Assembly (NCBI GenBank): GCA_017860345.1
Contig: JAFNAV010000013.1
Span: 1 to 53,013, forward strand
Direction of reading: 5' to 3'
From: Bacteroidota bacterium
GTDB lineage: Bacteria; Bacteroidota; Bacteroidia; Bacteroidales; Paludibacteraceae
DNA length: 53,013 nucleotides
Part shown: in pieces, positions 3,180-23,955 of the stretch
Layout: the number at the start of each line of letters is the position of its first letter
Position numbering within the stretch: the stretch's first letter is position 1
Translations under genes and position numbers: made by a program
Notes under the pieces: generated by a model
The model's input: only the letters and a program-made list of their open reading frames with translations
Database searches by the model: none
Told to the model about the DNA's origin: nothing

Positions 3180-3214
3180 AAGCCTCCCTTCCAGGGAGGT
3201 TGGAGGGGCTTTTA
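3180..3214. repeat. Short G/C-rich palindromic repeat upstream of the PepSY gene
   Basis: AAGCCTCCCTTCCAGGGAGG followed by TTGGAGGGGCTTTTA ends five bases before the ATG at 3220. It belongs to the same style of element as the one inside the GH94 gene (22432-22461). The CCTCCC/GGGAGG arms can form a hairpin over the translation start region. Confidence 0.65.
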
Positions 3215-3219
3215 AACAC

Positions 3220-4350
3220 ATGAAAAAGATATTCAGGAAACTACACCTCTGGCTCGGACTTTTGTCCGGGCTTTTGGTGTTTGTTATAGCCCTCACAGGC
3301 GCTCTTTACGCTTTTCAGGCCGAAATAAGTTCGTTGGCCGGATACCGCCATGTACAAGAACAACACGGGAGTTTTCTACCTCCGTCGGTACTTCAGCAAA
3401 TTGCTGAGGAGCAGTTGCCCGGCAAAGAGCTGCACTCCATCAATTACCGGGGCCGCACGCATGCAGCCGAGGCCGTGTTTTATGGTTACGAACCCACTTA
3501 CTACCAACTTGTGTTCCTGAACCCGTACACGGGCGAAGTGCTGAAAGTAAAAGATATGGAAAAAGATTTTTTCCGTTTCATTATCAACGGACACTTTTAC
3601 CTGTGGCTACCTCCGGCTATCGGTCAGCCATTGGTGGCGTGGTCTACACTTGTTTTTTTACTTGTAACCCTTACCGGCCTCATTATCTGGATACCCAAAA
3701 ACCGGAAAGCGCTTAAGAAACGTATTTGGTTTAGTTGGGAAAAGGGAGCTAAATGGCCCAAAATCAATTTCGACCTGCACGTTGTAGGTGGACTGTATGC
3801 TACGGTTTTTGCTGTGATATTCGCCATTACCGGATTGGTATGGGGTTTTCAGTGGTTTGCCTACGGATATTACAAAATAGTAGGCGGCGTAAAATCACTC
3901 GCCTACAACGATATAAGTCCGTATAAAAATCAGACAACCGGCAACAAAACAACGCATGCCCTGGACTCGGTATGGGTACTTATGCAGCACGAATATCCTG
4001 AAGCCACCACCATAGAAGTGCATCCGGTACACACCGACAGCACTCTGATTACAGCCAGTGTGTCGCTTGGCAAGGGCACCTACTGGAAAACCGACTATCG
4101 CTACTTCGACCAGCATTCGCTAACCGAGGTAAAGCCTGACAATATCTACGGACGATTAGAAGATGCTAATGCCGGCGAGAAGCTTTTTCGGATGAATTAC
4201 GACATTCACACCGGGGCAATTCTGGGTTTGCCGGGAAAAATTCTGGCTTTCGTTATGAGTCTTTTTATTGCCAGCCTGCCAGTTACAGGATTCATTATCT
4301 GGTGGCGAAAAAAACGCAATAAGCTCCAAAAGAAGAGCCGGAAACATTAG
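3220..4350 (+). CDS. PepSY-associated transmembrane protein, putative siderophore/iron reductase
   Basis: A 376-residue inner-membrane protein of the PepSY-TM (PF03929) family. The first membrane helix is at about 12-34, directly after the typical start KKIFRKLHLWLGLLSG. Further helices lie at about 138-160, 190-212 and 340-362. Histidines sit at the helix edges in HLWLG, NGHFYLW, DLHVVGG and DIHTG, a pattern shared with haem-binding FoxB/PiuB-like proteins that reduce ferric siderophores at the inner membrane. It follows the siderophore receptor on the same strand. The family and topology are seen in the sequence; the reductase role is inferred from context. A basic C-terminus (KKRNKLQKKSRKH) is expected to be cytoplasmic. 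Confidence 0.8.
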   Translation: MKKIFRKLHLWLGLLSGLLVFVIALTGALYAFQAEISSLAGYRHVQEQHGSFLPPSVLQQIAEEQLPGKELHSINYRGRTHAAEAVFYGYEPTYYQLVFLNPYTGEVLKVKDMEKDFFRFIINGHFYLWLPPAIGQPLVAWSTLVFLLVTLTGLIIWIPKNRKALKKRIWFSWEKGAKWPKINFDLHVVGGLYATVFAVIFAITGLVWGFQWFAYGYYKIVGGVKSLAYNDISPYKNQTTGNKTTHALDSVWVLMQHEYPEATTIEVHPVHTDSTLITASVSLGKGTYWKTDYRYFDQHSLTEVKPDNIYGRLEDANAGEKLFRMNYDIHTGAILGLPGKILAFVMSLFIASLPVTGFIIWWRKKRNKLQKKSRKH

Positions 4351-21349: not shown

Positions 21350-23827
21350 CTACATCACTACTTCCACCTGATAAACCCCAGCTCCGGTCTGTAACGGTAC
21401 CACATTGCCAACCAGACTTTCACCGTTCACTTTCAGTGATTTCACGCCTTTCATCTTTCCGTCGGGATTTTTCACGGTGATTTCGTAAGTTGCACCACGG
21501 AATTTGCGTATAACGCTGTATTCTTTCCATTCGGGCGGAAGGCACGGGTCGATACGCAAGCCTTCGTAAGTGGGCTGAATGCCGAGAATATATTGCGTAA
21601 TGGCATAGAAATTCCAGGCTGCCGTCCCGGTAAGCCACGAGTTTTTGGCCTCGCCGGGTTTGAAAGCGTCTTTCCCGGCAATCATCTGTGCATACACGTA
21701 GGGTTCCACCTTGTGCAGATCGCTGATATGCTCGGTGTACGATGGGCAGATTTTGCGGAAATACTCCCAGGCACGGTCGCCGCGCCCCTGCACGGTTTCG
21801 CCAATAATGATCCACGGATTGTTGTGACAGAAGATACCGGCATTTTCTTTGTATCCGGGCGGATAGCTGGATATCTCACCATATTCGATATAATATTTGG
21901 TAAAGGCCGGGTTATTCAGCACAATGCCGTGCTCGCAATCGAGCCTTTCCTTTACCGAATCGAGTGCTTTGGCAACCATTCCTTCTTCCAGCCCGATGCC
22001 TGCCATGGTACACCATCCGTTGGATTCGATAAATATTTTTCCTTCTTCATTGTCGTTGGAGCCCACTTTATTTCCAAAATAATCGTAAGCACGCAGAAAC
22101 CATTCTCCATCCCATCCATGTTTTTTGATAGATTCCACCATGGCATCAATATGTTTCTGAGCGCGGGCAGCTTCGTCGGTTTTGCCGAGTACTTTGCACA
22201 ACTCCACATAATCACGACCATACACCACAAACAGCCCGGCAATCATCAGGCTTTGAGCCTGACTTCCTTCCGATTTATTTTCGGTAGTTTGGAAGCTTTC
22301 GTTCGGGTCGTTGGAGAAACAGTTGAGGTTGAGGCAATCGTTCCAGTCGGCACGACCACTGAGCGGCAACCCGAGTGGCCCAAGGTTGTTGATCACATGG
22401 TTGAAAGAAACGGTGAGGTGGTCGAAGAGCGAAGCCTCCCCAAGCCCCTCCAAAGGAGGGGATGTGATAATACCTTCATCTTCTATAATAGTATCATTAA
22501 AAGGCACTTTCTCAAACAATATCGAAAAATCGCCTGTTTCTTTTATATAAGCCGTCGTTCCAAGGATCAACCACATAGGGTCGTCGTTGAAACCCTGACC
22601 TATTTCATTGTTTCCTTTTTTTGTTAATGGTTGATATTGGTGGTAGCAACCGCCGTCGGGGAATTGTGTGGAGGCAATGTCGATAATGCGCTCGCGGGCA
22701 CGTTCGGGAATTTGGTGCACGAATCCGATCAAATCCTGGTTGGAATCGCGGAAACCCATGCCACGGCCAATGCCGCTTTCGAAGAACGAAGCCGAGCGCG
22801 AGAAGCAGAAGGTGATCATGCATTGGTACTGATTCCAGATATTCACCATACGGTCGAGTTTTTCTTCGCCGGTTTTTACCTGAAAAGCATTGAGTAAATT
22901 ATCCCAGTAAGCACGCAACTCCGCCAAAGCAGCGTTCACTTTTTCGGCCGTATCAAAACGGGCAATGGTGGCTTTGGCTTTGGTTTTGTTGATAATGTTC
23001 TTGCTTTCCCATTTTTCGTCCTGCGCATTTTCCACATACCCAAGCACAAACACCAAATCTTTCGACTCGCCGGGTTGCAGCGTTACTTCAATGTAATGCG
23101 AAGCAATGGGCGACCAGCCGTGTGCCACCGAATTGCGGGGCGCGCCTTCGAGTACGGTTTGCGGTTCGTCAAAACCGTTGTACAGCCCGAAAAAAGTTTC
23201 GCGGTCGGTATCATAGCCTTTCAAAGGTACGTTAACCGAGTAATAAGCGTAATGGTTACGACGCTCTTTGTATTCTGTTTTATGATAGATGACAGAGTCT
23301 TCAATTTCGACCTCGCCCGTCGAGAAATTGCGCTGGAAATTTTCCATATCGGTGGCTGCGTTCCACAAAGCCCATTCTACGAACGAAAATATTTTAAGCG
23401 TTTTTACCTCCGCTGTTGTATTTCGCAAAGTCAGCTTTTGCACTTCGGCCCATGTTTTAAGCGGAACAAAATAAAGCGCTTCAGCTTCTACACCGTTTTT
23501 CACCCCTTTGATGGTGGTGTAATTCATCCCGTGGCGACATTCGTAGCTGTCGAGTTCGGTTTTGCAGGGCTTCCAGCCCGGGCTCCATACCGATTCACCA
23601 TCGTTGATATAAAAATACTTGCCGCCACTGTCCATCGGTACGTTGTTGTAGCGATAACGTGTCAGGCGGCGAAATTTCGCATCTTTATAAAATGAATATC
23701 CGCCTGCCGTATTTGAAATAAGGCTGAAAAAATCTTCGTTTCCCAGATAATTAATCCATGGCCACGGTGTACGTGGATTGGTAATGACGTATTCACGCCG
23801 GTTGTCGTCGAAATGTCCGTATTGCAT
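21350..23827 (-). CDS. Cellobiose phosphorylase (GH94) with an in-frame repeat peptide
   Basis: An 825-residue cytosolic enzyme with no signal peptide, close to the ~810-residue norm for cellobiose phosphorylases. The N-terminal sandwich begins with [27 protein letters not shown]. The catalytic barrel has [14 protein letters not shown] and the acid motif [14 protein letters not shown] (Asp near 497). Near the end of the barrel are [22 protein letters not shown] and [20 protein letters not shown]. The reaction is cellobiose plus phosphate to glucose-1-phosphate plus glucose. Residues 456-466 ([11 protein letters not shown]) are encoded by a G/C-rich palindromic repeat (22432-22461), apparently inserted in a loop between NDTIIEDE and LFDHL. 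The reading frame is kept, so the protein is probably functional. Confidence 0.92.
22432..22461. repeat. G/C-rich palindromic repeat inserted within the GH94 gene
   Basis: The plus-strand sequence AAGCCTCCCCAAGCCCCTCC followed by AAAGGAGGGG has hairpin arms CCCCTCC/GGAGGGG. It resembles the intergenic element at 3180-3214 but here it is translated in frame as part of the phosphorylase. Confidence 0.65.
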
Positions 23828-23844: not shown

Positions 23845-23955
23845 CCAGCCCCCTAAATCCCCCATGGGGGACTTAAAAGACCTTGTTCAGTTTAATTATT
23901 ACTACTTTTTCTATTTCATTTTTCTAAAAGTCCCCCTTGGGGGATTTAGGGGGCC
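23845..23955. repeat. Inverted pair of CCCCCTAAATCCCCC-type repeats
   Basis: Copy one is 23845-23876 (GCCCCCTAAATCCCCCATGG, then GGGACTTAAAAGA). Copy two is 23922-23954, its near-exact reverse complement. Each contains its own CCCCC/GGGGG hairpin, and the two can also pair with each other over about 32 bases. They fill the gap between GH3 and GH94 and extend into the GH3 stop codon. Confidence 0.75.

Follow-up and report, generated by a model that had tools for sequence, protein, structure and literature searches.

A palindromic repeat translated in frame within a Bacteroidota cellobiose phosphorylase, a candidate solo copy of a palindrome-nuclease mobile element

Inteins carry homing nuclease domains in frame at fixed places of conserved enzymes, for which empty and filled alleles coexist. 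A second, distinct type of in-frame insertion is represented by short palindromic repeats. In Rickettsia, palindromic elements (RPE), first reported at about 150 bp (PMC10969869), are located in intergenic regions as well as, in frame, within functional proteins (PMC10969869, PMC3733652). The latter report also describes intragenic REPs of the GTAG and CGTC families, that is, palindromes of 20–40 bp, and REPtrons, in which the gene for an enzyme is flanked by palindromes; the enzyme that moves the CGTC REPs is not known (PMC3733652). Because the hosts of intragenic REPs in that account already include uvrA and tRNA synthetases, solo palindromes translated in frame are not wholly new but rather a variant of an already known phenomenon.

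The DNA analyzed here (hereafter, the window; 53,013 nucleotides) encodes on the minus strand, at 21350..23827, a cellobiose phosphorylase (GH94) of 825 residues, which was identified by its open reading frame, its domain content (Pfam PF17167, E 2.6e-163), the closest solved structure by sequence (the cellobiose phosphorylase 3qde), and the dN/dS values given below. The earlier note on this sequence had claimed that a palindrome is translated in frame inside this enzyme, at residues 456-466, ahead of the GRADWNDC motif, and had read it as a palindromic repeat insertion, an interpretation that our analysis supports. On the plus strand, positions 22432-22461 read AAGCCTCCCCAAGCCCCTCCAAAGGAGGGG; the minus-strand reading agrees with the claim, with the palindrome translated within an 11-residue peptide at residues 456-466 and GRADWNDC starting at residue 491. 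Pattern and hairpin scans delineate a perfect hairpin core, CCCCTCC AAA GGAGGGG, at 22445..22461. This core belongs to a palindromic repeat unit of 33 nt as the gene reads it, encoding 11 residues (22433..22465, minus strand), which recurs as the same unit at other sites of the genome. The net in-frame insertion, as judged by the lengths of orthologs, amounts to 42 nt or residues 452-465 (22433..22474, minus strand; the ends depend on the alignment). Unlike REPs and REPtrons, the window copy carries no GTAG or CGTC tag at its ends or in its flanks, as read by eye.

The insertion is readily seen when orthologs are compared, as the earlier note had proposed. We collected 46 closer GH94 loci from the genus and the order, one of which was not readable at this stretch; more distant GH94 proteins, which are variable in this loop, were excluded from the count. 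The stretch between NDDP and ADWN is exactly 69 residues long in 43 of the 45 orthologs read and 83 residues long in the window protein and its ortholog from genome G013. Both 83-residue proteins carry the palindrome in their DNA, and the other 43 have no extra residue there, so that the segment is unique to the two palindrome-bearing genes and no palindrome-free ortholog among those read contains it. The size originally given for the segment, about 10 residues, has to be revised to a net gain of 14 residues, of which the repeat accounts for 33 nt; the insertion itself stands. Given the common place, there must have been either one insertion before the split of the window species and G013 or a transfer between them; most simply, the sequences point to a single event in their common ancestor.

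The two GH94 proteins are 88% identical, with dN of 0.081 and dS of 1.749; thus, the enzyme evolves under purifying selection with the insertion present. The insertion need not serve any function for the cell. Between the window genome (G000) and G013, the repeat codons 455-465 are identical at 10 of the 11 positions, and the neighboring residues of the insertion differ. In terms of conservation, the 11-codon window starting at residue 456 ranks in the top 5.3% of the gene, and the 33-nt window at the repeat in the top 5.1%. Because about 5% of the gene windows are equally conserved, this conservation of the palindrome at the DNA level is only suggestive. An estimate made by hand from codon identity comes to about 0.003 (the 10 codons encoding the same residue are all identical, compared to 382/690 gene-wide).

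An ordinary loop expansion in which the palindrome arose by chance would seem conceivable given that the segment is short and that insertions of comparable size are found at other positions of GH94 orthologs (L020, L497, L498, and others, among which only L020 was looked at for a palindrome, with none apparent to the eye). However, this explanation is barely credible and was rejected in view of the invariant length of the stretch in the other 43 orthologs, the shuffles, and the genomic copies. A single occurrence of the core CCCCTCCNNNGGAGGGG was detected in the window, compared to none in any of 100 shuffled windows, and the unit recurs both in the sister genome G013 and in the window genome (3.27 Mb, 86% complete), where six exact copies of the core were detected, compared to 0 for the reversed control pattern.

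The six copies include those in GH94 and in ValS (contig C34), two in contig C29, and two at sites that look intergenic. In C29, one copy lies 25 residues past the start of a 464-residue frame, and the other lies 2 residues ahead of the stop of the neighboring 466-residue frame; the two palindromes (G000:C29 49255-49400, L072) are in opposite orientation at the junction of the two genes and extend into the end of one and the beginning of the other; the gene products resemble the nitrogenase-cofactor-like proteins NifN and NifE. Units with another block order or with other C runs are present in the window genome as well. Within the window, the earlier note had offered positions 3180-3214 as a comparison copy. 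This sequence, AAGCCTCCCT TCC AGGGAGG TT GGAGGGGCTT, is indeed related and lies just upstream of the ORF 3220-4350, but spans 3180..3213 (plus strand) and is a variant with the same block design, in which the two C-rich blocks are swapped in order relative to the GH94 copy. A second palindrome type, CCCCCTAAATCCCCCATGGGGGACTT, is located upstream of the GH94 start (23849..23874, plus strand) together with its inverted partner (23928..23953, minus strand; the plus strand reads AAGTCCCCCTTGGGGGATTTAGGGGG); 23849-23953 accordingly form an inverted pair of CCCCC-type palindromes just before the gene. In G013, similar C-rich palindromes are found 3' of the stop codon of the GH94 ortholog.

The suggestion that peptides encoded by the same repeat might occur in other proteins was borne out: such peptides are present in frame in further proteins of both the window genome and its relatives. 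The longer repeat pattern, with up to 3 mismatches, has a match in 25 of the 40 genomes of the genus. In G013, ValS contains at least 4 repeat copies (the open frame is cut by the contig end), IleS contains two, and PurL contains one or more. Aligned to its orthologs, the ValS copy at KGW...QPE is present in G013 and absent in G025, G000, G009, and L288, with an apparent eroded relative in L286. Many copies sit between genes, near start or stop codons, and none of the 22 copies listed for G012 and G060 was judged to be clearly inside a protein. The intragenic copies are translated in different frames. All six frames of the 33-nt consensus are free of stop codons, which is also the case for 16% of its shuffles and 2.5% of random 33-mers. 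Two in-frame palindromes are adjacent in a DNA methyltransferase-like protein of G035 (L111, C63, 3220-3284).

The likeness to RPE that the earlier note had drawn holds for the behavior, that is, a palindrome translated in frame inside a conserved protein, but the window repeat is not an RPE. With a length of about 33 nt, compared to about 150 bp, the unit is shorter; it has another sequence and comes from another phylum, with the named relatives belonging to Bacteroidales and other Bacteroidota as opposed to Rickettsia. Furthermore, the available text on RPE names no nuclease (PMC10969869, PMC3733652), whereas the palindromes in relatives of the window genome flank DUF559 domains.

In ValS of G013, two repeats in opposite orientation bracket an in-frame DUF559 endonuclease domain. 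Scanning the 40 genomes of the genus with PF04480 yielded 82 matches in 30 genomes, 35 of these in open frames of more than 500 residues. Those 35 were judged to comprise 32 in-frame insertions and 3 other fusions (L171-L173). Counted by hand, a further 41 of the 82 matches are stand-alone; the remaining 6, weak or partial, were kept outside the analysis. The hosts of the inserted domains, by NCBIfam matches, are IleS, ValS, MetH, PurL, LeuS, and UvrA, and one further protein matched only DUF559. Judging by junction sequences, from which hosts beyond the NCBIfam-scanned proteins were named by eye, insertion places are common to different species, with the insertions distributed among MetH (9), PurL (6), LeuS (5), IleS site B (3), ValS (3), IleS site A (2), UvrA (1), and others (3).

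The domain is not confined to the genus. In the phylum sample, DUF559 was detected in 169 of 296 genomes, with frames of at least 600 residues in 34 of 150 among the matches listed; when 30 phylum loci were compared to six references using BLAST, LeuS was recognized twice and MetH once. The ValS cassette is present in Paludibacter sp. UBA5753, Bacteroidia bacterium S5R_St_3, Dysgonamonadaceae bacterium Cd354_bin49, and Dysgonomonas sp. PF1-14. Among the 67 full ValS frames obtained from 80 loci, these four exceed 1000 residues and the other 63 range from 870 to 918, with the cassette taking the place of the host turn EGEDG of the empty alleles. The window genome (86% complete) yielded no DUF559 match; therefore, the solo copies in this genome might be of ancient origin or have arrived by lateral transfer, and they cannot be tied to an enzyme that the genome still encodes. 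A full DUF559 domain inside GH94 at the palindrome site was not seen among the 295 genomes of the order or in the genus sample.

Complete units have the structure palindrome - DUF559 nuclease - palindrome. We counted hairpins within 250 bp whose 5' arm consists solely of pyrimidines and is 5 or more nucleotides long, 4 or more of them C. Such pyrimidine-arm hairpins are found near 31 of the 32 inserted domains (23 on both sides) and 39 of the 41 stand-alone genes (25 on both sides), compared to 9 of 338 background 500-bp windows. When the minimum arm length was raised to 6, hairpins were detected near 29/32 inserted and 21/41 stand-alone DUF559, with 7 in 169.6 kb of background. The arm sequence is identical on both sides in 36 of the 48 two-sided cases (2000 shuffles: mean 6.3, maximum 15). 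Mapped on the DUF559 tree, which was built on only 107 columns, the palindrome type, labeled by our own rule with 5 of 73 rows excluded for want of a label, changes 15 times (200 shuffles: mean 43.7, minimum 37); for the stand-alone genes only, there are 9 changes (shuffles: mean 20.6, minimum 17).

These counts bear on the possibility that the repeats are ordinary REP-like palindromes moved by RAYT (Y1) transposases, with DUF559 genes merely adjoining them. RAYT domains are indeed widespread, in 33 of the 40 genomes of the genus, with 4 in the window genome, itself devoid of DUF559, and Y1 domains also occur in frame within long proteins. However, the position beside a Y1 gene that characterizes REP/RAYT systems is not typical of these palindromes: among 21 RAYT genes, not a random draw but taken among the matches listed, pyrimidine-arm hairpins within 250 bp were detected near none at a minimum arm length of 6 and near 4 at a minimum of 5, three of these with a different, GTAG-containing core; some RAYT genes are instead flanked by inverted palindromes of other sequence. 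RAYT is thus disfavored as the cognate enzyme, and we consider this explanation quite unlikely. The likeness to REPtrons lies in an enzyme gene flanked by one palindrome type, here with DUF559 in the place of the Y1 transposase; the difference is that the enzyme domain itself resides inside host proteins.

Comparisons of sequences and models suggest that DUF559 has the fold and the active site of a known homing endonuclease family. The positions that we take to be the active-site residues of the PD-(D/E)XK type are kept almost throughout (D in 73/73, E in 73/73, D in 72/73, and H in 71/73). The DUF559 profile matches the structures 3hrl (E 4.9e-31) and 3r3p, a mobile-intron protein (E 7.4e-6), and the model of the domain likewise matches 3hrl (E 1e-6) and 3r3p (E 1.2e-3), the homing endonuclease I-Bth0305I, which we take to be Vsr-related. 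In the predicted structure of ValS with its cassette, DUF559 (about 228-342) folds between two host strands, and the palindrome-encoded linkers have pLDDT below 50, as do several host stretches; the two structure models are of modest confidence (mean pLDDT 62.6 and 70.1).

Thus, I-Bth0305I (PDB 3r3p) appears to be a relative of DUF559 in sequence and fold, and the two have in common that occupancy of the same site varies between species. However, 3r3p is titled a mobile intron protein or homing endonuclease, whereas the DUF559 units lie in one continuous frame with palindromes on the flanks. With inteins, they share the in-frame nuclease in conserved enzymes, but no intein family is listed for the DUF559 hosts: intein models are missing among the NCBIfam matches for IleS, ValS, MetH, PurL, and LeuS, and for UvrA among the best 25 of 181 matches. 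The intein explanation was rejected accordingly.

Whether such units move or are inherited can be gauged by comparing the cassettes with their hosts. In both MetH and ValS, occupancy of the same site varies among relatives, some having it empty and others filled. At the MetH site, among 30 loci, 17 are empty (24 residues), 7 are filled, 2 are intermediate (51 and 40 residues), and 4 were not read; the 51-residue form (G022) holds a hairpin in its DNA, and the 40-residue form has none to the eye. Between G025 and G013, MetH is 96% identical in the host part and 52% in the cassette, with a synonymous difference of 0.80 in the cassette compared to the host median of 0.32. In ValS of the same two genomes, the relation is reversed: the cassette is 93% and the host 88% identical, the DNA identity peaks over the cassette, and the synonymous difference is 0.12 in the cassette, compared to the host median of 0.55 and the lowest host window of 0.45. 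For LeuS of G017 and G022, the values are 0.28 and 0.67 for the cassette and the host, respectively. Altogether, the synonymous difference of the cassette is lower than the host median in 48 of 59 pairs, lower than every host window in 24, and not below the median in 11; these pairs share genomes and hence are not independent, the G021 MetH row was excluded from these counts and from the comparison of identities, and one MetH pair had no host window (59/60).

The patterns differ among the hosts. Cassettes from the same site form single tree groups in PurL, LeuS, ValS, and IleS sites A and B, and the identities of host and cassette are correlated in PurL and LeuS (Spearman 0.68 and 0.66, respectively) as opposed to MetH (-0.02). 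Given the correlation in PurL and LeuS and the mostly single groups of same-site cassettes, the units must have been inherited vertically for some of their history, if not more. Extended to all units, this becomes an alternative under which they are old, immobile decorations that are inherited vertically and frequently lost. We regard this as quite improbable in the face of the 24 pairs, albeit not independent, in which the cassette falls below every host window and of MetH, where the cassettes do not track the host and the one from G013 has as its nearest tree relative a cassette in another protein (support 90). Judging from sequence comparison, the histories of nuclease and host disagree in several pairs, and those in PurL and LeuS look largely vertical.

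Another alternative is that the palindromes belong to the host, serving, for example, as terminators or mRNA elements, and are merely favored as landing sites by DUF559 genes, with the solo insertions spreading otherwise. The abundance of intergenic copies close to start and stop codons fits this scheme, as does the MetH site, which, with hosts 96% alike and cassettes 52% alike, can hold different nucleases as a landing site would. However, the palindrome types are distributed in accordance with the nuclease tree, the palindromes flanking a nuclease match each other, and solo copies occur inside proteins whose relatives have none, so that this explanation, too, appears unlikely.

In our assessment, the GH94 insertion is probably a solo copy, lacking the nuclease, of a palindrome-nuclease mobile element, which enters genes in frame and persists in the encoded protein; the mobility of this element we infer from the comparisons above. 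Most likely, the DUF559 nuclease would recognize its own palindrome type and cut DNA at or near it, and repair of the break would copy the palindrome-nuclease-palindrome unit into a new place. The reading frame and the tolerance of the loop would then filter the survivors, and copies, nuclease-bearing or not, would remain part of the mature protein. The unit encodes linkers rich in Pro, Ser, and Gly; given such linkers and the lack of stop codons in all six frames of the typical unit, as seen for the 33-nt consensus, copies would survive upon in-frame insertion into a tolerant loop. Solo palindromes could be either remnants after the loss of the nuclease or non-autonomous copies moved in trans. 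The comparisons show the insertion, its repeat identity, the nuclease units lying in frame, their association with palindromes, and the conservation of the active site; cutting, copying, and the direction of change are all steps that we infer.

More broadly, the evidence appears to us evenly balanced on whether these units represent an undescribed class of elements, in which an I-Bth0305I-like DUF559 nuclease between inverted pyrimidine-arm palindromes homes or transposes in frame and, unspliced, remains as an extra domain of essential enzymes, with solo palindromes as footprints or non-autonomous copies. In the open-access literature, we found no description of a DUF559 unit between palindromes inside proteins. 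The movers of several families of in-protein palindromes are unknown, and DUF559 is a candidate for this role: many genomes have it flanked by palindromes, the subtypes correspond, and its active site is preserved. If this is the case, DUF559, by name a domain of unknown function, would drive a mobile element that resides within proteins; ValS, IleS, LeuS, PurL, and other essential enzymes would be able to accommodate a nuclease in a loop; and palindromes inserted into proteins would offer a testable route of loop evolution. For genome annotation, it is relevant that a cassette within an essential enzyme can easily be taken for a fusion or an assembly error.

Several additional observations were made in the course of this analysis. 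GH94 matches at E up to 1e-150 were obtained in 39 of the 295 genomes of the order, the longest frame among the matches listed being 858 residues. In the genus sample, the longest GH94 frame, at 875 residues, is that of G034 (C1, L020), owing to another insertion further on, of about 32 residues near residue 541, in which no C-rich palindrome was apparent to the eye; this protein also has an extended C-terminus. Parallel to the DUF559 insertions, a Y1-transposase-like domain is found in frame in L204, L205, L206, and L208 (G017, G022, G024, and G035, respectively), apparently at one common place and with repeat-like peptides nearby; the host enzymes presumably are of the large restriction-modification type. 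Finally, 177 stretches of IMG/VR contigs encode relatives of DUF559 (loci L407-L485), among which L407 is 57% identical to the query over the full length.
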